DNA of 43,630 bases, from positions 1-43,630 of the forward strand of contig QVQE01000095.1 in assembly GCA_003584865.1 (NCBI GenBank), written 5' to 3'. The notes beneath the pieces were generated by a model. The model did no database searches. It worked only from the letters and a program-made list of their open reading frames with translations, and was not told where the DNA came from. Of the stretch, positions 858 through 18,261 are shown piece after piece. The translations under genes were made by a program, and so were the position numbers. The stretch is from Methylococcales bacterium (GTDB lineage: Bacteria > Pseudomonadota > Gammaproteobacteria > Methylococcales > Methylomonadaceae). Numbering within the stretch: position 1 is the stretch's first letter; every line of letters begins with the position of its first letter.

Positions 858-3122
858 TTAATTCCAATGCACACGAATCCCCGCATAGCCGGTTGCAGGA
901 GCGCCGGGGCCTTGAAATTGGGTGGGGTTATTGTTATTAAAAAAGTTTTGTCCCAATTGGCTAAAAGATACGTAGTGGTTATCAAAGATATTTTTTCCCA
1001 TGGCAAAGAACTCAACATGTTTATTAATAATGTAGCGCGTATTGAGGTTAACAATTGCATAATCAGGGATTTGTGGGCTACTGTTAGTGTCATCACCCCG
1101 TGAATATTGGCTGGATACATATTGTAAATCGCCACCTAAGAAAAAGTTATGAAATAGTTCATATTCAGAGCCGAATTTAAGCGTATTGGCTGGAATGCTG
1201 GGGATTTTATTGCCAGCAATAACAGATTCAGCTCCCAGGCCATTAAATAACTGGGCATTGGACTGATAGGTGGCATCTACAAAGCCGTAACTCATATACC
1301 AGTTTAGACTCTCTAAGGCTAAACCACTTAAGCCCATTTCGATGCCTTGGCGTTTGGTTTTGCCGACATTACTAAAATAGCCGCGCGTAGTGTCCACATT
1401 TAAGAACAGAATGTCGTTAGTATTGATAGTTTCATAAAAGGACAGATTCCACTTTAGAGCTGCACTGAATTTACCGCGTAAGCCTGTTTCTAAAGTATGT
1501 GATACTACTGGTTTTAAAGGGGGGTCTGATAAAAAGCTATTCGGGAGTGTACAAGGCGCATTCGGATCAGCGCAGGTTAATTCTACAGGAGTGGGCGCCC
1601 TAAAGCCTTCATTGTAATTAAAGTAAGTAGTAAACTCTTGTAATGGTGTTTTAAGGGAGAATGCATCTAAGGGATTAAAGGTTAAGCCGGCTGAAGGGTT
1701 GAGACGTTCAAATGTATTGTTGCCGTTAATGGCATCCCCCATTTTATCAAGGGTTTGTACGTGTGCTTGCATCCAGTTAGCCGAGGCATTGAGATGTAGC
1801 CAGTCAAACACTGAGAAGGTGTCAGTAGCAAAAACATTGGAGTAAGTGTTTTCACCGTTGATATTGACTGTAGTCGTTAGCGGTTGGTTGGCGACCTCAT
1901 AAAACGTCGGCGTAAAATCGGCATTCTGCGTACCAATCGTATACCCTGTTTTGGCATAATTATAACCCCCACCGAAAACAAATTGATTCTCGTGTTTTAA
2001 GACTTTGTAATCAGAGGTTAATTGTAGATTCACACCAGTGCCGTTTTGTTTAGCTCTGGCGGCTTGAAAGGTGGCCGGAGAAAATCCACCCTCAAGACAA
2101 TCGGCATAAGTGTCGCAGTTACCGCCGGAGCTTCCGGTATTTGAATTGAGGCTGTAGCTGTTATTATTCCGGTTATAGGTGGTTCCGCTTAATTTTAATT
2201 GATCAGTTAGCCAATGGTTGCCTTTCAGGTTAAAGAAGTAGAGCGTGTTTTTAGTGACATCCGGTGCAGTATAGATGGCGCTCCAATGTTGTTGCAGTGC
2301 GTCTTGTGGCACAGGTCCTACGCCTTGAAGTTTGTTATCCGCAAAGGTAAACGATAAATCAATATCGGTTTTATCATTCTCCCAGCCTATTTTACCAAAG
2401 CTTTGATTCACGCTGGATGGAGAATAAGGCCGCCAGCCTTGATCATCAAAAATATTACCTGCAAAATACCAATCAAACTGCTCATGAGAGCCGCCAACCT
2501 CAGCCTGATAATTTTGGCGTCCGTAAGAACCGCCACTGGCTTGAGCATTAAAACCAGGATGACTTCTGCCGCTCTTGGTTCTGAGCGATAAGGCGCCACC
2601 CAAGGTATTTAAGCCAAATAAGGGGTTTGAGCCAGGCATCATTTCCATGCTGGATATTGCAATTTGAGGAATTAGGTCCCAATTGATGGTATCTCCAAAA
2701 GCTTCATTAACCCGTACCCCATCCTGATACACTGAAATCCCGATAGGTGCTCCTAAAACGGGAGAAGCACTAAAGCCTCGATAAGTAATATCGGGTTGAT
2801 AAGGGTTGTTTTGCGTGTCGTTGATATTAACGCTTTGCATTTGACGATTCATAAAGTCAGGTAAAGAAGTCGCCTCGTGACGGTTAAGGGTCTCGTCTTC
2901 GATTGATTGAACATTACCCGATATCTTCTTTAATTTTAGACCGCTCGAACCAACGGGAGTGGTGCTAACCACTTCAATTTCAGGAAGTTCAAATACATCA
3001 ACAGGGGATGTTTGGTTCGAGGTATTTTCAGTCTCAGCTTCAGCAGCAGTATTAATAGGGCTGGTTAAAATAAGCGGCAAAGCTGCCAACAACCATTGTT
3101 TGCGAAAGAGAAAATACGTCAT
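858..3122 (-). CDS. TonB-dependent outer membrane receptor
   Basis: 754 aa with plug domain (DITYRGFSASPVLGAPIGISVYQDGVRVNEAFGDTINWDLIP) and C-terminal beta-barrel ending in aromatic residue (GIRVHWN); signal-like N-terminus. Confidence 0.9.
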   Translation of the reverse strand: MTYFLFRKQWLLAALPLILTSPINTAAEAETENTSNQTSPVDVFELPEIEVVSTTPVGSSGLKLKKISGNVQSIEDETLNRHEATSLPDFMNRQMQSVNINDTQNNPYQPDITYRGFSASPVLGAPIGISVYQDGVRVNEAFGDTINWDLIPQIAISSMEMMPGSNPLFGLNTLGGALSLRTKSGRSHPGFNAQASGGSYGRQNYQAEVGGSHEQFDWYFAGNIFDDQGWRPYSPSSVNQSFGKIGWENDKTDIDLSFTFADNKLQGVGPVPQDALQQHWSAIYTAPDVTKNTLYFFNLKGNHWLTDQLKLSGTTYNRNNNSYSLNSNTGSSGGNCDTYADCLEGGFSPATFQAARAKQNGTGVNLQLTSDYKVLKHENQFVFGGGYNYAKTGYTIGTQNADFTPTFYEVANQPLTTTVNINGENTYSNVFATDTFSVFDWLHLNASANWMQAHVQTLDKMGDAINGNNTFERLNPSAGLTFNPLDAFSLKTPLQEFTTYFNYNEGFRAPTPVELTCADPNAPCTLPNSFLSDPPLKPVVSHTLETGLRGKFSAALKWNLSFYETINTNDILFLNVDTTRGYFSNVGKTKRQGIEMGLSGLALESLNWYMSYGFVDATYQSNAQLFNGLGAESVIAGNKIPSIPANTLKFGSEYELFHNFFLGGDLQYVSSQYSRGDDTNSSPQIPDYAIVNLNTRYIINKHVEFFAMGKNIFDNHYVSFSQLGQNFFNNNNPTQFQGPGAPATGYAGIRVHWN

Positions 3123-3281: not shown

Positions 3282-6200
3282 ATGCTGAGTACCTTAGTTC
3301 GCTTTTCTATCCGCTTTTACGGTATTGTTATTGCCTTGGCTATGATTATTTTACTGTATGGCAGTTATCGTTTTACCACCGCCGGTTTGGATATTTTTCC
3401 TGAGTTTGCTCCCAAGCGGGTGATTATTCAGACCGAAGCGCCCGGATTATCCGCAGAACAGGTAGAGGTACTGGTGACTCGCCAGATTGAAACCGCGATT
3501 AGTGGTTTAGTCGGTATGGAGTCGGTGCGCTCTGAATCTATTCAGGGCTTATCCATTATAACGGCGACATTTAAAGAGCAGACTGATATCTATAGAAACC
3601 GGCAGTTAATCAGTGAGCGTCTAGGCATTTCTTTAGCTAACTTACCTTTGGGAATTACGCCCGTTGCTATTCCCTTATCATCCTCTTCAGCAACCGTATT
3701 GACGATAGGCTTAAACTCGGACACTAAAGATTTAATGGCGTTACGGAGTTTAGTGGATTGGACGGTGGTACCGCGTTTATTGGCCATTCCAGGCGTGGCA
3801 GATGTTAATGTATTTGGAGGGGAGGTTGGGCAGTTACAAATTCAGCTTGATCCCATTCAAATGCAGCGCTTTAATTTAGCGCTTAATGACGTGATTGAGG
3901 CCGCTACCCGAGCCAGTGTGATACAGGGCGGTGGTTTTATTGAAAACAAAAACCAACGCATTACTTTACAAGTCACCGGACAACCGAACTCACCTGAACA
4001 ATTCGCAAAAATTATTGTGCAGCGTGAGCAAGGCCGGAATATTACCCTGGGGGAGGTCTCTACGATTCGTTATGCACCTGAACCACCGATCAGTGCGGCA
4101 CAAATTAAGGGTAAACAAGGAATCGTTTTAATGGTTATCGGGCAGTATGGCGCCAATACCTTGACGGTTTCGAGACAGGTTGAGCAAATGCTACAGGAGT
4201 TTGATCCAGTCTTTAAAAATGAGGCGATTACTTTCTATGAGCATTTGTTTCGTCCGGCGGATTATATCGAACGGTCCATTGCTAATTTGTCAGGGCATTT
4301 GTTGCTAGGGGGGTTATTTGTACTGATTGTGTTATATCTGTTTTTGTTTAACTTTCGCACCGCTTTTATTTCAGCCTTGGCGATTCCGGTGTCCTTAATG
4401 GGCGCGGTGATTGTGTTATTGGAAACCGGGGTGCATCTGAATATCATGGTGCTGGGTGGTTTAGCCATTGCCTTGGGTGAGGTGGTTGATGATGCGATCA
4501 TTGATACTGAGAATATATTCAGGCGGTTACGCGAGAACCGTTTACTAGGGGTGCCTTTGTCTGTTACTAACGTGGTTTATACGGCTTCATTAGAAGTACG
4601 TAGTTCGGTGGTTTACGCCAGTTTTATTGTGGCTTTGGTATTTGTACCCTTACTAACCCTGAATGGCGTTGCGGGACGACTATTTGCTCCACTGGGGTAT
4701 TCGTACATTTTGGCTATTTTAATCTCTCTTTTGGTTGCATTAACGTTAACTCCGGCGCTGTGTTTTTTGTTATTGGGGCGGCCCTTTGACCAGCGTAATG
4801 AACCGCCGTTGATTACAGTTATCAAGCCCATTTATCAGCACTTACTGATATTTGTTTTTAAGTATTTTAAGGGCTTAATCCTGGGTTGTTTAGTGGTCTG
4901 TTTATTCGGAGTCATGACCTTTTTCAGACTGGATAGTAAGTTTTTGCCAGAACTGCGAGAAGGGCACTATATTATTCATACCACCAGTCTTCCGGGCACG
5001 TCCTTACAGGAGTCGTTGCGAATAGGTAGCCAATTGACTCAGCAGTTTCTGGCTATTCCAGGTGTTCAATCCGTCTCTCAATGGGCAGGTCGAGCAGAGC
5101 GGGGGGCAGATACTTACGGTAGTCATTACAGTGAGTATGAAGTTAGACTTGAGCCTTTATCAGGTGAGCAGCAGCAACAGATATTTGAGCAGTTAAGAGA
5201 AATTCTGGCGCATTTTCCCGGTATTGGTTTTGAAGCCAATACCTTTTTGACAGAAAGAATCGATGAAACCATTTCTGGCTATACGGCTCCTGTGGTTGTT
5301 AATCTGTATGGAAATGATTTAAATGTGCTGGATGCTCAGGCACACGTATTGGCTCAGGTAATGAGAGACATTCCGGGGGCGACCGATATTCAGTTACGAT
5401 CACCGCCGGCGACACCGTTATTGCAGATTCATTTAGATCTGGATCAGCTTAACTTTTGGGGGATTATGCCGACAGAAGTGGTTAATGCGGTACAAATAGC
5501 CTACGAAACACGGGTCGTGGGTAAACATATTCAGGGTAAAAAGATTATCAATATTGCGGTTGCGTTAGCACCTGAATTAAGGCAGCAACCTGATACAATA
5601 GGGCAATTGCCGATTAGGGCACAGGACGGTTCCTTAGTTAGATTAGAGCAGGTTGCAGAGATACGTCATACGGCCAGTCGGTATAATATATTGCATCAAG
5701 GCGCTCAACGTCGGCAAGCGGTAACCTGTCATGTGCTGAATCGGGATATGGATAGTTTTATGGCTGAGCTTAAAGCCCGTGTGCTTAAAGACATTCCGGT
5801 GTCGGCGGATAGTTATCCCGAGTTTACGGGGGCAGCAATAGAACAGGCACAGGCTCGGAATGAGTTGATTCTTCATTCTTTGTTGGCGGGGGCGGGTGTG
5901 TTGATTTTTATCTACATGGCGATTGGTAGTGTGCGGAATACCTTGTTGACACTGGTTAACTTTCCTTTTGCTCTGATGGGTGGGGTTGCTGCGGTGCTGT
6001 TGACCAATGCGACCTTATCAGTAGGCTCTGTGGTTGGCTTTGTCACTTTATTTGGCATTACGGTGCGTAATAGTATTATGCTATTGTCACACTATCGGCA
6101 TTTAGTGGAAACTGAAGGGCTGCATTGGGATATCAATACGGTTATATTGGGTGCTCAGGAGCGCTTGCCTTCTATTTTAATGACCGCCTTGGTGACGGCT

Positions 6201-6368
6201 CTAGCGATGTTTCCGATTGCGTTTAATAGTGATAATCCGGGGCGTGAAATTATGGGGCCAATGGCAGCCATTATTATCGGTGGCTTGGTGAGTTCGACGC
6301 TATTAAACTTATTGCTGTTGCCCAGCATGTTGTTACGCTATGGGTACTTTAATAATGATCAGGAATAA
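3282..6368 (+). CDS. efflux RND transporter permease, CusA/CzcA-like heavy-metal family
   Basis: 1028 aa; RND architecture, GEVVDDAIIDTENIFRRLRENR motif, two large periplasmic loops. Confidence 0.9.
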   Translation: MLSTLVRFSIRFYGIVIALAMIILLYGSYRFTTAGLDIFPEFAPKRVIIQTEAPGLSAEQVEVLVTRQIETAISGLVGMESVRSESIQGLSIITATFKEQTDIYRNRQLISERLGISLANLPLGITPVAIPLSSSSATVLTIGLNSDTKDLMALRSLVDWTVVPRLLAIPGVADVNVFGGEVGQLQIQLDPIQMQRFNLALNDVIEAATRASVIQGGGFIENKNQRITLQVTGQPNSPEQFAKIIVQREQGRNITLGEVSTIRYAPEPPISAAQIKGKQGIVLMVIGQYGANTLTVSRQVEQMLQEFDPVFKNEAITFYEHLFRPADYIERSIANLSGHLLLGGLFVLIVLYLFLFNFRTAFISALAIPVSLMGAVIVLLETGVHLNIMVLGGLAIALGEVVDDAIIDTENIFRRLRENRLLGVPLSVTNVVYTASLEVRSSVVYASFIVALVFVPLLTLNGVAGRLFAPLGYSYILAILISLLVALTLTPALCFLLLGRPFDQRNEPPLITVIKPIYQHLLIFVFKYFKGLILGCLVVCLFGVMTFFRLDSKFLPELREGHYIIHTTSLPGTSLQESLRIGSQLTQQFLAIPGVQSVSQWAGRAERGADTYGSHYSEYEVRLEPLSGEQQQQIFEQLREILAHFPGIGFEANTFLTERIDETISGYTAPVVVNLYGNDLNVLDAQAHVLAQVMRDIPGATDIQLRSPPATPLLQIHLDLDQLNFWGIMPTEVVNAVQIAYETRVVGKHIQGKKIINIAVALAPELRQQPDTIGQLPIRAQDGSLVRLEQVAEIRHTASRYNILHQGAQRRQAVTCHVLNRDMDSFMAELKARVLKDIPVSADSYPEFTGAAIEQAQARNELILHSLLAGAGVLIFIYMAIGSVRNTLLTLVNFPFALMGGVAAVLLTNATLSVGSVVGFVTLFGITVRNSIMLLSHYRHLVETEGLHWDINTVILGAQERLPSILMTALVTALAMFPIAFNSDNPGREIMGPMAAIIIGGLVSSTLLNLLLLPSMLLRYGYFNNDQE

Positions 6369-6477
6369 CCTATTGCCTGGAAGTTGCTCTGGGTATGCTG
6401 TATATGCAGTACCGTCGTATTTTTGAATGCGTTTATGTTGTCTATTTTTTAATTATTTTATTCTTATGGAGTTACCC

Positions 6478-6852
6478 ATGAAACAGATCTTAAAAGCACT
6501 ATTGATTATAGCTACCCTGTTCTTGTTCACGTCTTCTTTTGCAACGGCGGCATCCAATAATTATCCCGCTAAATGGGGTATCAAGTTAGGTAATGGGTTT
6601 GCCAATTCTCTGACAGGTATCGCAGAAATCCCTAAAAGCATCATCATAACTAATCGTACTGACGGTCCGGCTTACGCGGCAACAGCTGGATTTATGACGG
6701 GTTTGTTGCACATGGTTGGGCGGACTTTATGTGGTACGTTTGATATTGTGACCTTTATGATTCCTACAAAACCCATCGTTCGTCCTGATCTTGTCTGGCA
6801 AAAATATAACAAGGAAACCAGTTATCGTGCTTCTTGGGAGTTATTACCTTAA
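6478..6852 (+). CDS. exosortase system-associated protein, TIGR04073-like
   Basis: small secreted protein with signal peptide; KLGNGFANSLTGIAEIPKSIIITNRTDGPAYAATAGFMTGLLHMVGRTLCGTFDIVTFMIPTKPIVRPD resembles that family; start moved to ATG 6478. Confidence 0.65.
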   Translation: MKQILKALLIIATLFLFTSSFATAASNNYPAKWGIKLGNGFANSLTGIAEIPKSIIITNRTDGPAYAATAGFMTGLLHMVGRTLCGTFDIVTFMIPTKPIVRPDLVWQKYNKETSYRASWELLP

Positions 6853-6889
6853 GCGGTCTGGATGTGTCTGGATAGCGTTTTATAACACA

Positions 6890-6920
6890 AAAAAAGGGTG
6901 TCTTTACGACACCCTTTTTT
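6890..6920. terminator. bidirectional intrinsic terminator between convergent genes
   Basis: aaaaaagggtgtc-tttac-gacaccctttttt, A-tract and T-tract flanking stem. Confidence 0.85.
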
Positions 6921-6971
6921 ATTTCAACAACAATAACAACGTTTAGTCGTTAAATGTCCTGAACCCTATCA

Positions 6972-7640
6972 TTAATTTCTACCGTTGAAGGCACCTAATA
7001 TTTGCAACAGGCTTAGGAATAAATTGTAGATAGACACATAAAGCGAAATAGTCGCAAGGATGTAGTTAGTTTCGCCCCCATTAACGATTTGACTGGTTTG
7101 AAACAGGATCATGCCTGACATCAGTAAGATAAACATCGCTGATACAGCCAGTGATAGTGCAGGAATAGAGAAAACGATAGCACCGATTCCGGCTAAAAAT
7201 GCAACCAAAACGCCAACCATCAGAAAGCCACCCATATAACTAAAGTCTTTACGGGTAGTTAAGGCATAGCCAGAAAGACCTAGAAAAATGGTGCCTGTTC
7301 CACCTAAAGCCATTATGATAAGCTCATGCCCATTGCTGAAGGCATTGACATACATCGATAAAATGGGGCCGAGTGTTAAGCCCATAAAACCGGTTAATGC
7401 GAAAACAAACAGTAAGCCTAAAGCACTGTTGCTGAATTTAGCGGTTAAGAAAAACAGGCCGTAAAAGCCGACTAAGGTAGCCATCATGCCGAAAGGAGGC
7501 AGATTAAAGTACATAGCAGCACCCGCAGTTACGGCACTGAACATCAAGGTCATTGATAATAGCAGGTAAGTATTTTTTAAGACTTTATTAGTCGCCAGAA
7601 TACCCGATTCTTGACGTGATATAGCAGTATTTACTTTCAT
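6972..7640 (-). CDS. Bax inhibitor-1/YccA family membrane protein
   Basis: multi-TM protein; FALTGFMGLTLGPILSMY motif typical of BI-1/YccA. Confidence 0.88.
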   Translation of the reverse strand: MKVNTAISRQESGILATNKVLKNTYLLLSMTLMFSAVTAGAAMYFNLPPFGMMATLVGFYGLFFLTAKFSNSALGLLFVFALTGFMGLTLGPILSMYVNAFSNGHELIIMALGGTGTIFLGLSGYALTTRKDFSYMGGFLMVGVLVAFLAGIGAIVFSIPALSLAVSAMFILLMSGMILFQTSQIVNGGETNYILATISLYVSIYNLFLSLLQILGAFNGRN

Positions 7641-9772: not shown

Positions 9773-9999
9773 ATGACCACAATTACCCTAGATGACGCAT
9801 TAATCAATGAAGTTATTGCTGCAAGTCATGCTCAAAATGCCCAAGAAGCACTTATAAAAATAATAACCTTCTCTTACAGCAGCATAAACAAAAACCTGCG
9901 TTTTTCGAGCAACTCTGTTTGGCTGATGAGTCTTTAGATGATGAGCTAGCCTTATTGTTTGAACGAAACAAAGATACAGGTAGAGATATCGGATTATGA
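9773..9999 (+). pseudogene. frameshifted VapB-type antitoxin remnant
   Basis: MTTITLDDALINEVIAASHAQNAQEALIKI... continues after a frame change as LQQHKQKPAFFEQLCLADESLDDELALLFERNKDTGRDIGL*; last codons overlap the downstream ATG. Confidence 0.75.
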
Positions 10000-10097
10000 A
10001 TTATCTAATTGATACCTGTGTATTATCCGAGTGCGTTAAAAAAACACCTAACCCTTTATTGCTGCAACAGCCTCCTAAATTAATTCTTCATATCTAA
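9996..10097 (+). pseudogene. truncated VapC-type PIN-domain toxin
   Basis: MNYLIDTCVLSECVKKTPNPLLLQQPPKLILHI*; first PIN acidic motif present, remainder missing. Confidence 0.75.
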
Positions 10098-10230
10098 AGT
10101 GTGCAAAGATTAATTTTATCAGATTTACTCCCGGGAGGTCATACAAACTCCCAGCATCAATATTTACTATCCGTGTCTGCTGACAGACTAGCTTTTGTGC
10201 ACTATCTTAGTGTCGCGGATTTAGATTTAC

Positions 10231-10353
10231 CCATCACCCACGTGGGCTTTCGTTTTTGCCTGAGGTCCATCAAGCCAGGTCAGGAAAAGGCTTAGCTCGG
10301 CGGGATCGCCGGGCAGTGCGACCGGAGGGAGCTTTAGTCATTTAAAGCAGGCG
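10231..10353 (+). repeat. orphan FGE-gene 3' tail (third copy of the constant VR end, hairpin and 3' flank)
   Basis: cgtgggctttcgtttttgcctgaggtccatcaag...gctcggcgggatcgccgggc...tcatttaaagcaggcg closely matches 18143-18261. Confidence 0.85.
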
Positions 10354-10491
10354 CTTTGTTTTATAAGCGTTTTCTACAAAAGATCTTAACTTAATAACAG
10401 AGGTGTAGAGATCAATAACATTCAGTTAAGGGAATTTAGTATGCAGCGGAAATAAAATGATTGAGCAGCACTCACCATTAAATTACACTAA

Positions 10492-11067
10492 GTGAAACTT
10501 AATGATGACTATAATCCCATGCAACCTCTACGACGTTTAATGCAAAACCTGGATAAATTGGCGAATGCTGAACATTATCTTTTCACACCTGATGATTTAA
10601 GGGCGCTTTTACCTGATTTAACCGATTCTGCTTTTAATACTCTTTTATGCCGTGTTAGTAAAGACCAACACTTAACCAGACTGTGTCGAGGACTCTATTT
10701 TTTTGAAAAAGTCGCGCCTATTTCTGGACTTTTATTATTTCATGCTGCCGCAAGATTACGCGCTGACTGCTTAAATTATATTAGTTTAGAAACGGTACTA
10801 AGTGATGCTGGGGTTATTTCTCAAATACCCATTAATCATATTACTGTTATGTCATCAGGACGTAGCAGTGTGATTTCTTGTGGTCGATGGGGAACCATTG
10901 AGTTTGTGCGTACCCGTCAAAAGCCTCAAGATTTAGAAAAGCTGATTTATTATGATGCCCGTTGCAAGTTATGGCGAGCGACCGTGCCACAAGCCCTGCG
11001 TGATATGCGAGTGACACATCGTAATACTGACTTAATAGATTGGAGTGTAGCTAATGAGTTTGTTTGA
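10492..11067 (+). CDS. abiEi: AbiEi-like antitoxin of type IV toxin-antitoxin system
   Basis: 191 aa, wHTH-like N-terminus, CRGLYFFEK and YISLETVLSDAGVISQIP motifs; overlaps AbiEii start; GTG start. Confidence 0.82.
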   Translation: MKLNDDYNPMQPLRRLMQNLDKLANAEHYLFTPDDLRALLPDLTDSAFNTLLCRVSKDQHLTRLCRGLYFFEKVAPISGLLLFHAAARLRADCLNYISLETVLSDAGVISQIPINHITVMSSGRSSVISCGRWGTIEFVRTRQKPQDLEKLIYYDARCKLWRATVPQALRDMRVTHRNTDLIDWSVANEFV

Positions 11068-11950
11068 TCAATTGGTCGATGAAGCCTTACAAAATAGACG
11101 AGAATTAAATTCTTTACGTGTAGTTGTCGAAAAAGAATTGTTGCATCATGATATTTTGCGCGTGTTAAGTGAGTCTGGCTTATTGAGTCGACTCACTTTT
11201 ATTGGCGGGACTTGTTTACGTGCGTGTTATGGCTCAAACCGACTGAGTGAAGACTTGGACTTTACGGGAGGAACTGACTTTAAGCGAGATAGATTAATAA
11301 CTATGGCCGAAAGTCTGGTTACGAACATGATGACTAAATACGGTCTAGAAATTCAGGTAAGTGAACCTACACGAGAAAGTGGTAACGTAGATACTTGGAA
11401 ACTAAAAGTACAGACTCGCCCAGATAGAAAAGATTTACCAGCCCAACGTATTAATATCGACGTGTGCGCTATACCCAGTTATCAACCACACCCCATGCTG
11501 TTATTAAACCCTTATGGCGTTGAAATGGGTACGAGTGGTTTAATTTTACAAGTTGAGAGTAGAGAGGAAATTTTTACTGATAAGCTGTGCGCCTTTGCAC
11601 TTCGTCCAAACCGAATTAAAAACCGTGATTTATGGGATATAGCCTGGTTACATCAACAAGGTGTTAGACCACAAATGGATTTACTGGCAAAAAAACTGAT
11701 AGACCATAAAACGGACACACTACAGTTTGTAAACTTATTTGAAATACGGTCTGCGACACTTAAAAATGATCCCAAGGTAGCACTAGAGTTTAAAAAAGAA
11801 ATGAGACGTTTCTTACCGGCGGATTTAGTGACTCAAACCGCTGATCAACCCGTATTTTGGGGCGTTATGAGCCAAATTATTCATAACTTCTCTTTGCAAA
11901 TTCGACAGCATTTTTTGAATTCTGATTCTATCGATGCCTTTAAAATGTGA
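11054..11950 (+). CDS. abiEii: AbiEii/AbiGii nucleotidyltransferase toxin
   Basis: LTFIGGTCLRACYGSNRLSEDLDFTGG NTase motif; DKLCAFALRPNRIKNRDLWDIAWL motif. Confidence 0.92.
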   Translation: MSLFDQLVDEALQNRRELNSLRVVVEKELLHHDILRVLSESGLLSRLTFIGGTCLRACYGSNRLSEDLDFTGGTDFKRDRLITMAESLVTNMMTKYGLEIQVSEPTRESGNVDTWKLKVQTRPDRKDLPAQRINIDVCAIPSYQPHPMLLLNPYGVEMGTSGLILQVESREEIFTDKLCAFALRPNRIKNRDLWDIAWLHQQGVRPQMDLLAKKLIDHKTDTLQFVNLFEIRSATLKNDPKVALEFKKEMRRFLPADLVTQTADQPVFWGVMSQIIHNFSLQIRQHFLNSDSIDAFKM

Positions 11951-12061
11951 ATAGAACTACAACTGAGTTTGTGGTTTTACTAACCAAGCAATATTTAGTG
12001 TCGCGGGTTTAGATTTACGTTAGAATTTCAAACGATTTATTAACCGTAAGAGCGCCTGTGA

Positions 12062-13399
12062 ATGACTTCAGAAACCAGCACTAAACGATTTCGTATTGCC
12101 TTTTCCTTTGCAGGAGAAAAGCGGGAGTTTGTCAAAGCTACCGCACAGATTTTGGCTAAGCGATTTGGTGAAGATAAGATTTTGTATGACAAATTTCATA
12201 TAGCGGAGTTTGCTGATGCAGATCTTGGTTTTATTCTGCCTGATCTATACAAAAACGATACCGACTTAATTGTTGCTGTATTTTGTCGCGATTATGAGAA
12301 AAAGCAGTGGTGCGGCTTGGAGTGGCGAGCTGTCTTCTCAATGATTAAAGAAAACCAGTCAAAAAAAGTTCTGCTTAGTCGTTTTGATCTGATGGATGGC
12401 AAAGGCTTATTTGGGCTTGCTGGTTTTATCGATTTAGACGATGAAAGACCTGAACAATTTGCCGCCCTGATTCTTCAACGTCTCGCTATTAATGAAAGAA
12501 AGCCCAAAGATCACTATACAAAGGATTGCACTGAAACAACTCAAGTGGGTGTAATTGATGTTACTCAAGATTCCTATGAAAGCCATAAGAATCTTGCTTT
12601 AGAGTTATTAGAAAATTCTGAATCCTATCTGACTGAATTGAAAGCACTTATGAAATGTGCAGATGCAACTGAAATTATAAATCGCTTTAGTCAGTGTAAG
12701 CCTGAAGATGTTAATGCTTTGTTTCTAGTTTCCCGTAAAGCCTTGAACAAAGTTCGTTTTGCTGATTTAAATGAGTCTGACAAACACGATGTAATTGAAG
12801 CGGTTACGGCTTTGTATCTGCTTGCTGCACTGCGTTTGGTTGATGTTGCATCAGCACAAAGTGGTTATGTTGTATTAGTACCCAGTAATGAACGCATATT
12901 ATGTGCGATTATTGCAACTGCGTTATTTGGAGGTAGTTTAAAAGTATTGCCAGATTACGATACACACCTTCCTGTCCCAGAGTATGCTTTTGAGATTAAT
13001 GTTCCAGCGGCTGGCGATTACGTGACAGAGAGTTTTGAACGAGCCATGTATGTTTCGATATTTAAAAATAATCGAAAAGTCGATCTCAGTGCACTTGATT
13101 CGCAGAAACTGAGTCAAGATGAAATCAGTGATTTGAATGCCAGATTAGAATCTTTACGCGATGTTCATGAGCAAAATTTATGTTTGGTAGTGACTGGAAA
13201 TACCATCTCAGCGGATAATGCTGTTCCAATTTCAAACACATATAAAGTACCAACATTTTTTCAGTCGGATGATACCGCCACCGTTGTATTGGGCATGCCT
13301 TATCAAGACTTGACCGCGAAAATCAAACAATTCTGGCAGGATCTTAATGAGCTTCGAAGTAAACACTTATCCCAATCATCTATTACAGGAGTGCAGTAG
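12062..13399 (+). CDS. TIR-domain protein with unassigned C-terminal domain
   Basis: N-terminal FRIAFSFAGEKREFVKATAQIL...LYDKFHIAEFADADLGFILPDLYKNDTDLIVAVFCRDYEKKQWCGLEWRAV matches TIR_2-like pattern including WCxxE. Confidence 0.85.
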   Translation: MTSETSTKRFRIAFSFAGEKREFVKATAQILAKRFGEDKILYDKFHIAEFADADLGFILPDLYKNDTDLIVAVFCRDYEKKQWCGLEWRAVFSMIKENQSKKVLLSRFDLMDGKGLFGLAGFIDLDDERPEQFAALILQRLAINERKPKDHYTKDCTETTQVGVIDVTQDSYESHKNLALELLENSESYLTELKALMKCADATEIINRFSQCKPEDVNALFLVSRKALNKVRFADLNESDKHDVIEAVTALYLLAALRLVDVASAQSGYVVLVPSNERILCAIIATALFGGSLKVLPDYDTHLPVPEYAFEINVPAAGDYVTESFERAMYVSIFKNNRKVDLSALDSQKLSQDEISDLNARLESLRDVHEQNLCLVVTGNTISADNAVPISNTYKVPTFFQSDDTATVVLGMPYQDLTAKIKQFWQDLNELRSKHLSQSSITGVQ

Positions 13400-14380
13400 A
13401 TGCTCCCACCCACTATGAAAACCATTAACCCGTTTATCGATTTAATACCAGAAACAACTGAGACATTAACGCCCAGCAACCGCTTTCCAGCTGCCGGTCA
13501 CCTATGGAGCAAGCCGGAAATTGATGCCCTGATTTTTGCCTTTGCTGCTCGACGACCCTTATTAGTCCGTGGTGAAGCAGGGAGTGGTAAGAGTCAAATA
13601 GCGCGAGCGGCGGCACAGCACCTGAAAACAAATGAACCCTTGGTTGAAGTGATTCATCCACGCTTTGAAGCACTGGATTTATTATACCGCGTTGATGTCG
13701 TTGAGCGTTTGGCAGATGCACAAATCCAGGATCTTGACAAAACCAATGAACGGTATGTTAAGCGTGGACGGCTTTGGGAAGCACTGGCGCAGATGGACAA
13801 AGACCCAGACTGTATTCCGGTACTTCTGATTGACGAAATCGATAAAGCCGATGCCGATCTACCCAATGCCTTGTTGGATGTGTTGGGTAACCGCAGTTTT
13901 GACGTACCCCCTTTAAACAATCGCACGATTCATGCACCCGATCAACGCTGGCCGTTGATTATTATTACCACCAACGAAGAGCGCGAATTGCCACCCGCTT
14001 TTATTCGTCGCTGTGCTGTACTTAATCTCAATCCACCAAAGGATGATAAGCCGTTTATTGAGTGGTTGATTCAGCGGGGCAAGGTGCATAACCATTTGAT
14101 TATTGAAGAAGCGGCTCGCCAAACAGCCGCCGAACAGGTTCTGGAAGATCGTAAAGCTGCGGAACAGGCGGGCTATCCCAAAGTGGGCTTGGCTGAATAT
14201 ATAGATTTGCTCACCGCGCTGCATGAACTGATGCAGACAAGAAGCGGCAAAGCGCCTCATAAAAGTCAACTAGACTGGTTGAATCAAATAAGCCCTTATG
14301 CCTTGGTCAAACACGCGGAACAAAATCAGGGGCGTTCCCCGGTGATACCCTCAGCGGCTACCCCGTCAGAGGCTGATTAA
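13400..14380 (+). CDS. MoxR-like AAA+ ATPase
   Basis: Walker A GEAGSGKS, Walker B VLLIDEIDKADADLPNALLDVL, sensor ITTNEERELPPAFIRRC. Confidence 0.9.
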   Translation: MLPPTMKTINPFIDLIPETTETLTPSNRFPAAGHLWSKPEIDALIFAFAARRPLLVRGEAGSGKSQIARAAAQHLKTNEPLVEVIHPRFEALDLLYRVDVVERLADAQIQDLDKTNERYVKRGRLWEALAQMDKDPDCIPVLLIDEIDKADADLPNALLDVLGNRSFDVPPLNNRTIHAPDQRWPLIIITTNEERELPPAFIRRCAVLNLNPPKDDKPFIEWLIQRGKVHNHLIIEEAARQTAAEQVLEDRKAAEQAGYPKVGLAEYIDLLTALHELMQTRSGKAPHKSQLDWLNQISPYALVKHAEQNQGRSPVIPSAATPSEAD

Positions 14381-14382
14381 GC

Positions 14383-17340
14383 TTGAAACCTTTTGCACCT
14401 TCATCAGCCAACGGTCAAGTTGGTAGAGCCGATTTACTGCGTCTGCTTGCGATAGCGCCGCGCACGGAGCTGTGGCTCGATGACGATGGGGTGCATCAAT
14501 TCGGTTATCAGTATCGCCCCCTGTCGAACGAGCCGAAAGAGCCCGATAATGGTGTCTTACCTCCACCTCCTGAGCCGATTATCTCAACCAGTCATTTCAA
14601 ACTGCCATTACAGATGCCGTTCGTTAATCTGGTTGTAGATCGGCAAGCACGCGAACAAAGAACGCAAACAGAATCCTCAAGCCCAACCGCTGCCGTTTAT
14701 GAACCCATTACCGAAGCCGATGCCAAATCGCCTTCAAAAATAAGGTTGGTCAACTATGAAGACCTGGTACCCAAAGCCCGCTTGTTACCTGCGCTTAAAC
14801 ACTATTTGTCAAGTAACCGCTTGGCAGGTATGGATGTGCAGCGTTTGGTAAAACAAATAGCTCTACAACAACTGCCCCGCTATTTGCCGCGTTGCCACGT
14901 TAAAAGTTGGCATCCTCAATGGCTAGTGGTTTTAGATTTTGCTAAACGACTGTGGCCTTATCGACAAGACATGCATGCATTAGCCGAGAATTTGCTTAAA
15001 GCCTGTGGTCAATCCGGTGTGTCTATTCGTATTATCAACCACGGGCCTTTGCAGAACTGGACTGATTGGGTAGAAGAACAGCAGGGTCGTGGGGTGTTGC
15101 CAAGCAAACACACTTGGCGTATGCCGGTTGTCAATACGCCGGTTTTGCTGGTCAGCGATTTAGGTTTACTGGAAGGCCGGGACTCAAGCACGCATCAGGC
15201 CTGGCAAGACTTTATCCGGCAACTGACGCAAGCGCAAATCAAGCCACTGGCACTGTTACCTTTGGCAGCGGAGCAACTCGATGCCGGGCTGCCTAAGAAG
15301 CTAACCTTATTGCGTTGGAGTCCCGATGCCCGCATTCATCCAGAACGTGCAATGGGTAATGGCTTGAACGTTCCCGACGGTTTGGACGATTTATTGGCGA
15401 TGGCTGCCGTTACCCGTCGGGTCGATCCGCCGTTGTTACGGGCTCTGCGACGTTTAAATCCAAAAGCGCCGCTCAATGCTGGACTTGAAGGTGCGTTTTG
15501 GTGTCATGCCGATGTTGAAGCGGGTTCTGCTGCCCATATACGCCATGCCGTACAAGCCAAACATCAGGCGCATTTTTCCGAGCACTTACAGGAGTGCCAT
15601 ATAGAATTGGAGCGACTGCGTTATTTGCATCACGCGCATTTACGCGCAGTGTTGAATCATGAAGAAACACTTTTGTGGTATGCGCACGCTAAATTGGACG
15701 GGGTGCAAGTTTCTGAAGAAACCCAAGAACGACTACAGAAGGCAGATACCTTTATGCGTCAACTGGCCGCTACCTTGAAACAACCGGACGGTTTGCAAAA
15801 AGGGGGGGTATGGTGGAGCGTGGCGCAGGAAATTGTGCAACGCGCTGATAATCAGATGGGTAAGGATTTCATAGAGTTGCTGGCGCCACTGGTGCAGGTG
15901 ATTGCTGAAGTGCGCGGCGTTTGGCAACAGCCGCCTGACTGGGTAGACCCAATCGATCTTGTTAGTGATGACCGTAAACGTCAATCCTGCTGGCTAGTGA
16001 ACGATCCAGTCACCTGTAGTATTGTGCTACAGTCTACCCCTCCAGAACGTAACCAAATTGCTTTGTCTGAGCCAATTACTATCGATCAAGGTGGTTTACG
16101 CATCGAAAGCACTGGATCAAGAATCTTGCTCTTAATGGCTCACTTGCCTTTTCGCGTATGCGGATTGCAGGAGCAGACGTTGATTAAGCTAATTAGTAGT
16201 CAAGAAGTTTTAACGTTGGCCAGTGTAAAAAGACCACGTGGAGCGGCTGCCTGGGGTTGGAAAGTGCCACATTCAGAAATTTGGGTGAGGTCTGCACCGA
16301 TTTGTGGGCAAGGATACGAATGGAGTGCTTCTGGCAATCCAAGCGACCAGTTACTCAAAATAGTTTTAACAGAAAACGGCCAATACCAATTGGTGGAGAA
16401 TCAACTAAGTAGTCAGATCAAACTTTTGGACATTCATCCTAGTTATATTTCATACGATTATGAAAATACGGCTTCCAGGGTACGATTCGTTCTGGATGAG
16501 TACGGTGTTCGAGCTGATTTGAGTGTGATTACTGCACCTGATGAACTCATTCAAACCTTACGCTGGATCGACCCCGGCACTTTCTGGATGGGCTCTCCAG
16601 AGGATGAGCTGGAACGATACGATAATGAAGGACCTCGTCACGAAGTCACCATTAGTCGTGGCTTCTGGCTGGCAGATTCTGCTTGTACTCAAGCCTTATG
16701 GCAAGCGGTAATGGGCAACAATCCCAGTCGTTTTAAAGATGATCCCCAGCAACCAGTGGAGCAAGTCAGTTGGCACGATGTTCAAGCGTTTTTACAGCGA
16801 CTACAAGAATTGTTGCCGGGTTGCCAAGTCGATTTACCTAGCGAAGCCGAATGGGAATATGCGTGCCGTGCAGGAACTCAGTCGCCATTCAGTTTCGGTA
16901 CCAACATTAACCCGCAGCAAGTTAATTACTATGGCGAAAATCCTTATCCCGGTGGCGAGAAAGGTGAATACCTCGCAAAGACCGTACCGGTAAAAAGCCT
17001 GCCTGCCAATCCTTGGGGATTGTATGAAATGCACGGCAACGTATATGAGTGGTGTAAAGATGGTCAACGGACTTATGATGAGCAAGCTCAAATCGATCCA
17101 CTGGGGCCAATGACTGGCGATGATAATCCCCGGTGCCTTCGCGGCGGTTCTTGGGACGGCTACGCCAGGTGGGCGCGTTCGGCCTTCCGCAGCGCCTACC
17201 AGCCCGACGATGCCATCAACGACGTGGGCTTTCGTTTTTGCCTGAGGTCCATCGAGTCAGGTCAGGTAACAGGAAGCCCGGCGGGCAGGGCGACCGGAGG
17301 GAGCCCAGACCAGGGGCGGAAGGGTGTCAAGTCGAAATGA
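14383..17340 (+). CDS. large protein: vWA-like N-terminal/middle region fused to C-terminal FGE-sulfatase (SUMF1/C-type-lectin fold) domain with variable 3' end
   Basis: 985 aa, TTG start 2 bp after the ATPase gene; WLVVLDFAKRLWPYRQDMHALAENLLKAC...PVLLVSDLGLLEG Rossmann-like; C-terminal WIDPGTFWMGSPEDE...GNVYEW...GGSW...VGFRFCLRS. Confidence 0.85.
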   Translation: MKPFAPSSANGQVGRADLLRLLAIAPRTELWLDDDGVHQFGYQYRPLSNEPKEPDNGVLPPPPEPIISTSHFKLPLQMPFVNLVVDRQAREQRTQTESSSPTAAVYEPITEADAKSPSKIRLVNYEDLVPKARLLPALKHYLSSNRLAGMDVQRLVKQIALQQLPRYLPRCHVKSWHPQWLVVLDFAKRLWPYRQDMHALAENLLKACGQSGVSIRIINHGPLQNWTDWVEEQQGRGVLPSKHTWRMPVVNTPVLLVSDLGLLEGRDSSTHQAWQDFIRQLTQAQIKPLALLPLAAEQLDAGLPKKLTLLRWSPDARIHPERAMGNGLNVPDGLDDLLAMAAVTRRVDPPLLRALRRLNPKAPLNAGLEGAFWCHADVEAGSAAHIRHAVQAKHQAHFSEHLQECHIELERLRYLHHAHLRAVLNHEETLLWYAHAKLDGVQVSEETQERLQKADTFMRQLAATLKQPDGLQKGGVWWSVAQEIVQRADNQMGKDFIELLAPLVQVIAEVRGVWQQPPDWVDPIDLVSDDRKRQSCWLVNDPVTCSIVLQSTPPERNQIALSEPITIDQGGLRIESTGSRILLLMAHLPFRVCGLQEQTLIKLISSQEVLTLASVKRPRGAAAWGWKVPHSEIWVRSAPICGQGYEWSASGNPSDQLLKIVLTENGQYQLVENQLSSQIKLLDIHPSYISYDYENTASRVRFVLDEYGVRADLSVITAPDELIQTLRWIDPGTFWMGSPEDELERYDNEGPRHEVTISRGFWLADSACTQALWQAVMGNNPSRFKDDPQQPVEQVSWHDVQAFLQRLQELLPGCQVDLPSEAEWEYACRAGTQSPFSFGTNINPQQVNYYGENPYPGGEKGEYLAKTVPVKSLPANPWGLYEMHGNVYEWCKDGQRTYDEQAQIDPLGPMTGDDNPRCLRGGSWDGYARWARSAFRSAYQPDDAINDVGFRFCLRSIESGQVTGSPAGRATGGSPDQGRKGVKSK
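17155..17223 (+). other. variable segment of putative DGR variable repeat, VR1
   Basis: 23 codons differing from VR2 at 17 positions, all at codon positions 1/2, flanked by identical constant blocks. Confidence 0.85.
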
Positions 17341-18245
17341 ACACAAGCTCCCGTTTCCCCAACCCGTTTCCACCCCCCTTCGCTCATGCTTGGGGCGATG
17401 ATGAATTTGGACTTTGGGCTGAGTTTAGGCTTGAGGTACCTAACGGTGAGTCAGTGGTACAAAACTTCCGCTGGATAGAGCCTGGCACTTTCTGGATGGG
17501 TTCGCCGGAGGATGAGCCAGAACGATTCAAAAATGAAGGACCACGTCACGAGGTAACTATTAATCAAGGTTTCTGGCTGGCCGATTCTGCTTGTACTCAG
17601 GCCTTATGGCAGGCGGTAATGGACAATAATCCCAGTAGTTTTAAAGATGATCCCCAACAGCCAGTGGAGAATGTCAGTTGGCATAACGTGCAAGCGTTTT
17701 TAAAGCGCCTGCAAGAACGGTTGCAAAGTTTGTTGCCAGGTTGCCAAGTCGATTTGCCCAGCGAAGCCGAATGGGAATATGCGTGCCGTGCGGGTACGAC
17801 TACGCCGTTTAGTTTCGGCGCCAACATTAACCCGCAGCAAGTTAACTATGACGGTAACTATCCTTATTTCGGAGACGAGAAGGGTGAATTCCGTAAAAAG
17901 ACCGTACCGGTCAAAAGCCTGCCTGCCAATCCTTGGGGATTGTATGAAATGCACGGTAATGTCTGGGAGTGGTGTAAGGAGGGTCAACGGACTTATGACG
18001 AACAAGTGCAAATCGATCCACTGGGGCCAATGACAGGCGATGATATTCCCCGGTGCCTTCGCGGCGGTTCTTGGATCGACTACGCCAGGTGGGCGCGTTC
18101 GTCCAACCGCTACGCCCTCCAGCCCGTCAGTGCCAGCGACCTCGTGGGCTTTCGTTTTTGCCTGAGGTCCATCAAGTCAGGTCAGGTCAGGAAAAGGCTT
18201 AGCCCGGCGGGATCGCCGGGCAGGGGCGACCGGAGGGAGCCTTAG
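17337..18245 (+). CDS. FGE-sulfatase (C-type-lectin fold) domain protein with variable 3' end
   Basis: 302 aa; MNTSSRFPNPFPPPFAHAWGDDEFGLWAEF...WIEPGTFWMGSPEDE...GNVWEW...GGSWIDYARWARSSNRYALQPVSASDLVGFRFCLRS; ATGA overlap with upstream stop. The track start at 17133 overlaps VR1 out of frame and is unlikely. Confidence 0.9.
   Translation: MNTSSRFPNPFPPPFAHAWGDDEFGLWAEFRLEVPNGESVVQNFRWIEPGTFWMGSPEDEPERFKNEGPRHEVTINQGFWLADSACTQALWQAVMDNNPSSFKDDPQQPVENVSWHNVQAFLKRLQERLQSLLPGCQVDLPSEAEWEYACRAGTTTPFSFGANINPQQVNYDGNYPYFGDEKGEFRKKTVPVKSLPANPWGLYEMHGNVWEWCKEGQRTYDEQVQIDPLGPMTGDDIPRCLRGGSWIDYARWARSSNRYALQPVSASDLVGFRFCLRSIKSGQVRKRLSPAGSPGRGDRREP
18075..18143 (+). other. variable segment of putative DGR variable repeat, VR2
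   Basis: same-length 23-codon variable segment as VR1, identical constant flanks. Confidence 0.85.
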
Positions 18246-18261
18246 TCATTTAAAGCAGGCG
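18143..18261 (+). repeat. constant FGE 3' tail + hairpin + 3' flank (repeat copy 3)
   Basis: close match to 10241-10353; related shorter copy at 17222-17305. Confidence 0.85.
18202..18221 (+). other. perfect 8-bp stem, 4-nt loop hairpin downstream of VR2
   Basis: GCCCGGCG-GGAT-CGCCGGGC; compensating wobble version GCTCGGCG-GGAT-CGCCGGGC at 10295-10314. Confidence 0.85.

Follow-up and report, generated by a model that had tools for sequence, protein, structure and literature searches.

A gene-less target tail upstream of abiE, the probable deletion scar of a retroelement-diversified conflict operon in a methanotroph

The window analysed here, 43,630 nt of DNA from a Methylococcales bacterium (contig QVQE01000095.1), carries upstream of the abiE genes a 123-nt segment (10231-10353) that has the make-up of the 3' end of a target gene of a diversity-generating retroelement (DGR). 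This orphan tail is the dead remnant of a DGR-diversified conflict operon and, with a probability that we put at roughly 0.85, an internal deletion scar in which the first 32 nt and the last 123 nt of a second copy of the operon have been joined in order. The lost operon was of defence type, with sensor genes formerly mutated rapidly by a reverse transcriptase (RT), and its host is a methane-oxidising bacterium. The decisive feature, overlooked in an earlier reading of the DNA letters (the initial annotation), is that the tail is directly abutted by 32 nt, here called leader A, which copy the start of the leader before a surviving TIR operon further downstream (leader B, 11988 onward). The left operon edge is thus joined straight to the right edge, in correct order and orientation. 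The features concerned are listed below; G012, a sister genome, and G033 are separate public metagenome-assembled genomes (MAGs), and G017 is a further relative.

10199..10230, + strand: leader A, the first 32 nt of a second operon copy (GCACTATCTTAGTGTCGCGGATTTAGATTTAC), 30/32 identical to leader B of G033
10231..10264, + strand: 3' end of a variable region (VR), including the initiation of mutagenic homing sequence (IMH), with variable codons ATC ACC CAC; aligned with the template repeat (TR) of G012 (GCCAACAACAACGTGGGC, L026) it shows 3 differences, all at TR adenines
10265..10353, + strand: post-VR tail with VR-type junction (GTCCATC), hairpin 1, hairpin 2 and the operon 3' boundary AAAGCAGGCG
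10492..11067, + strand: abiEi antitoxin (NF047376, 186 bits, above cut-off)
11054..11950, + strand: abiEii toxin, a nucleotidyltransferase (PF08843, 6e-33)
11988..12061, + strand: leader B of the surviving operon, present as a single copy in G017 (L027:2533-2605), where abiE and the orphan are absent
12062..13399, + strand: TIR-domain protein, encoded by the gene that opens the surviving operon (PF13676)
13400..14380, + strand: AAA ATPase (PF07728), called MoxR-like from gene context
14383..17340, + strand: FGE1, a large protein with C-terminal FGE-sulfatase domain and VR (PF03781; 14/16 differences from the TR at adenines)
17337..18245, + strand: FGE2, the second DGR target gene (PF03781; 15/18 differences from the TR at adenines)

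Homology of the orphan to the FGE tails begins at CCATCACCCACGTGGGC (10231) and stops at AAAGCAGGCG (10353). The genome searched (G000) is a MAG of 2.5 Mb in 197 contigs, 75% complete (25% missing), of which the window is contig C6. A search of all 197 contigs returned three copies, none outside the window: the orphan, the end of FGE1 (17213 onward) and the end of FGE2 (18133-18261). The closest match was the FGE2 tail (91% over 122 nt, E=9e-43), followed by the FGE1 tail (81%, E=2e-20), and nothing resembling an FGE body was found to the left of the orphan in the window. The initial annotation was right that the segment matches the end of the second FGE gene with no FGE body before it, and it read the codons ATC ACC CAC correctly. 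Its description of a shared post-stop flank and hairpin stands as to the match, but in FGE2 the hairpin is still within the coding frame, which runs to a stop at 18243-18245, leaving only ~16 nt of the match as genuine post-stop sequence. The orphan has lost 5 nt, and its shifted frame reaches an earlier stop at 10293-10295; a 64-aa open reading frame (ORF; 10101-10295) passes through the leader sequence. A functional DGR target gene would be an ORF with a C-type-lectin or FGE domain ending in the VR, and no such ORF is present at the orphan. Scanning the window against Rfam and for tRNAs gave no matches.

The ~20-nt GC-rich hairpins of the tail resemble REP-like (repetitive extragenic palindromic) elements, and the initial annotation had named beforehand, as the finding to set against its reading, a generic dispersed intergenic repeat, which would be of REP or MITE (miniature inverted-repeat transposable element) type. 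In a scan of 237 genomes of the family, however, true copies of the tail were confined to FGE 3' ends, TRs and this orphan lineage, the remainder being chance matches outside FGE genes. Together with the three copies in the genome, these scans rule out a dispersed repeat within the genomes searched, and we give that explanation next to no credence. The mobile 3' cassette that the initial annotation had offered as an alternative is unsupported, since no copies exist beyond FGE 3' ends and TRs save in the orphan lineage, and 10231-10353 has no inverted repeats, target duplications or recombinase of its own; the sole flanking direct repeat is the operon leader.

Searching relatives at the DNA level revealed an intact unit, FGE1-HRDC-RT-TR-FGE2, on contig C282 of G012 (L026), with the following features.

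L026 4556-7588, - strand: FGE1
L026 4047-4559: HRDC protein (PF00570)
L026 3017-4069: reverse transcriptase (PF00078)
L026 ~2886-3005: AAC-rich TR
L026 1787-2698: FGE2

The G012 TR ends GCC AAC AAC AAC GTG GGC TTT CGT TTT TGC CTG AGC TCG. Of the 67 sites at which the four FGE VRs (those of the window and of G012) depart from this TR, 60 are template adenines, a bias that is the hallmark of mutagenesis by a DGR. The sequence of the orphan here is.CC ATC ACC CAC GTG GGC, and its differences from the G012 TR likewise fall at adenines (3/3; P ~0.005 over the 35-nt overlap, 0.12 counting the 11-nt variable part only). Its 3' junction, CTGAGGTCCATC, is that of all VRs, whereas the TRs of G012 and Methylomonas lenta read CTGAGCTCGATG; the junction base is G (VR type) and not C (TR type). 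Judged by its sequence, the orphan is the end of a diversified VR and not of a TR, and the adenine-site differences and VR-type junction together mark it as a former diversified target. The junction rules out a template repeat. The wider proposal, that the orphan is a TR or the site of a remote and still active DGR target, is extremely unlikely on further grounds as well: just 34 nt of TR homology are left, the assembled genome gave no full-length DGR RT, no FGE reading frame remains to be diversified, and the orphans of G012 and G033 carry GGCATT for the invariant GGCTTT despite the intact RT and TR of G012.

The structure downstream of the VR end is also that of a DGR target. Hairpin 1 (10295-10314) has an 8-bp stem with one T-G pair and a GGAT loop, and hairpin 2 (~10316-10332) has the core CCGGAGGG. 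In known DGR targets, efficient homing depends on a hairpin that comes after the IMH (PMC3240598). The BPP-1 target site shares with the orphan a VR end followed by a GC-rich hairpin with a 7-10 bp stem and a 4-nt loop, and differs in its phage consensus loop GRNA, which is not found here, in lacking the second adjoining hairpin and in retaining the remainder of its VR (PMC3240598). Since most intact relatives also have GGAT, this loop is a family difference from the phage consensus and not a defect of the orphan. The hairpins are conserved in other genera. In M. lenta (L109), FGE genes close with a tail composed of VR end, IMH, hairpin 1 with a 7-8 bp stem and hairpin 2, and an equivalent tail closes FGE genes in another Methylococcales MAG (L108). 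The alphaproteobacterial MAG GSL.Bin18 (L112, L113) has an identical 27-nt VR end and an FGE tail with a different stem, GCCGGCCC-GGA-GGGCCGGC, which suggests that stem structure rather than stem sequence is kept across distant bacteria.

The adenine-only differences, VR-type junction, DGR hairpins and fused leader bear out the initial annotation's proposal of a fossil third DGR target, and together they argue that a whole operon copy has been deleted. The last 24 nt of leader A match two sites in the window at >=18/24, with no third. We propose that the ancestor would have held two tandem copies of one module with abiE between them, the module running leader, TIR or alternative first gene, AAA ATPase, FGE1, HRDC, DGR reverse transcriptase, TR, FGE2 and tail. 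The upstream copy, presumed complete, would then have lost, in one single deletion, everything from leader base 33 through ~11 bases before the invariant GTGGGC of the FGE2 VR, so that leader A was fused to the VR end. The remnant keeps the end of a VR that the DGR had diversified before the deletion, together with the IMH and the hairpin formerly used to direct cDNA homing; it no longer encodes a target and travels with abiE. The breakpoint lies within the VR, ~11 nt upstream of the invariant block, with no evident microhomology, and the retained bases are adenine-mutated. Such a position would also fit a deletion made by the DGR itself, in an aborted homing event in which cDNA begun at the IMH was copied for ~30 nt and joined to the leader instead of the VR, which we hold to be very unlikely.

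A tail-abiE segment detached from another DGR operon could instead have been inserted into the leader, duplicating ~32 nt of it. The leader copies do flank tail and abiE as direct repeats, and in G017 the corresponding site has one leader without an insert. A target duplication of 32 nt would be unusual, however; the two leaders differ at 2-3 positions, the start of the insert would have to fall exactly inside a VR, and terminal repeats and an integrase are absent, as is any such element from the plasmid and phage collections. An insertion is therefore unlikely, and even then the tail would be a fossil target, since its source must be a broken DGR target. Several points also weigh against a deletion. 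The leader match is short (32 nt). Only ~11 variable bases remain, with 3 differences, which leaves the adenine-site test low power by itself. No genome was found with an intact FGE2 tail followed by this abiE, and it is for the ancestor that we infer one; nor did the relatives yield an intact FGE gene at this exact spot, where the initial annotation had suggested looking. Finally, a second unit in G033, described below, could reflect strain mixture within that MAG.

The junction of leader and tail is identical in G012 and G033, so that the scar is present in three separately assembled genomes, which argues against an assembly artefact. G012 and G033 also carry abiE genes that are 99.6% identical, whereas other flanking DNA is mostly 83-96% identical between G012 and the window, except for one 3-kb block near 100%. 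From the identical junction and near-identical abiE beside diverged flanks, the scar is most likely real, and would have arisen once and spread or been exchanged together with abiE. In G017 the operon has one leader, and abiE and the orphan are both absent. On a second contig of G033 (L049), the 3' end of abiE is followed by the leader and a different first gene, consistent with abiE-leader-operon units existing in more than one version. Homologues of abiE in G019 and G034 (77%) have unrelated surroundings with no FGE operon and are uninformative on the origin of the orphan. The orphan region had no match in the plasmid and phage collections. The block of high identity (4599-7598, ~3 kb matching G012 at nearly 100%, with 83-95% identity on either side) may reflect recent recombination between species, or bin mixing.

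The remnant is decaying. Its substitutions relative to the FGE2 tail fall in the hairpin stems, and the predicted single-strand DNA fold is weaker (-10.5 vs -16.3 kcal/mol). Further signs are the early stop and an invariant codon altered in the orphans of two genomes, G012 and G033 (GGCATT in place of the GGCTTT seen in other FGE tails of this type). A consensus scan of 9960-12120 for promoters and terminators found promoters no more frequent than in shuffles, so that a regulatory role for leader A and the tail is unsupported.

The surviving operon has itself lost its DGR. The HRDC-RT-TR block that lies between FGE1 and FGE2 in G012 is deleted in the window (17300-17345), which therefore holds no complete DGR with RT and TR. 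No full-length DGR RT for the FGE targets was found in the 75% complete assembly; its sole RVT_1 match, on contig C196, is group II-intron-like. With HRDC, RT and TR gone, both FGE targets of the window have probably ceased to vary, barring action in trans by an RT encoded elsewhere. In G017 (L027:7840-8110) the start of HRDC is fused to post-TR sequence at the 10-mer TTTTGCCTGA, HRDC-RT-TR having been lost between its two copies. G017 and the window carry independent deletions here, and loss within this DGR thus recurs. Elsewhere in the genome, a 109-aa DGR-RT-like fragment (G000:C95:4745-5071, L077; 46%, residues 15-123) lies downstream of another FGE gene; it belongs to another locus, where a second DGR of this genome may have decayed.

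Comparable decay has been described. Treponema denticola has DGR target genes that are truncated or 'suspicious', and remnants of targets that lack an RT (PMC4891356). Truncated targets, and targets left after the loss of RT and TR, are common to both cases, but here the operon body is gone, the leader is fused to the VR tail and the target is the FGE-type domain of a TIR/AAA operon. The conflict systems of Thiohalocapsa PB-PSB1 (PMC10907252) likewise have duplicated DGR loci, conflict-system targets, loss of RT or TR and a dynamic structure; there MITE-like arrays and insertion sequences replace parts, whereas here the deletions are clean (in G017 with 10-nt microhomology). Unlike the decay in either system, exactly both operon edges are retained here. 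MoxR-vWA-centric ternary conflict systems with DGR-associated FGS domains are described in PMC7159879, and share with the present operon a MoxR-type AAA ATPase, an FGE/FGS-domain protein and a DGR in gammaproteobacteria, with TIR among the effectors. That class has vWA and VMAP-C domains, and the likeness is one of TIR, AAA and FGE-sulfatase domains, the only ones that Pfam showed here in a search not aimed at vWA or VMAP-C. The scar is an ordinary yet unusually clear genomic fossil. It indicates that the DGR-diversified conflict operons of methanotrophs undergo duplication and clean deletion and apparently also pass from one species to another. The VR-IMH-hairpin tail may serve as a marker of vanished DGR operons, gene-less tails giving a tally of past losses, and in annotation an isolated VR tail should not be taken for a remote target.

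Positions 1-110 of the window belong to an insertion sequence that ends here (terminal GGCATCCTTCAT), with related sites at L024:13183-13292 and at the upper end of L026. The TIR gene of G012 is probably split by a similar element, inserted with an 8-bp duplication, AGCGGGAG, and contigs C183 and C282 would thereby be linked; the identity of the window to G012 falls sharply at the insertion-sequence site, and the link is thus uncertain. Upstream of leader A lie the remains of a vapBC-like pair (9773-10102), which is broken in the window and intact in G012.

9773..9937, + strand: vapB-like antitoxin gene, frameshifted relative to the 75-aa G012 protein (ORF comparison with L024:9752-9979)
9997..10097, + strand: 5' stub of a vapC-like PIN-domain gene, intact in G012 at L024:9976-10422 (PF01850)

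About 42 nt stand in the window where G012 has ~1.1 kb, the rest of vapC and an adjacent gene for a 225-aa protein having been deleted in the window. Between the vapC stub and leader A, 10103-10198 has weak (~75%), multi-copy, dispersed similarity in two other genomes (G023, G029).
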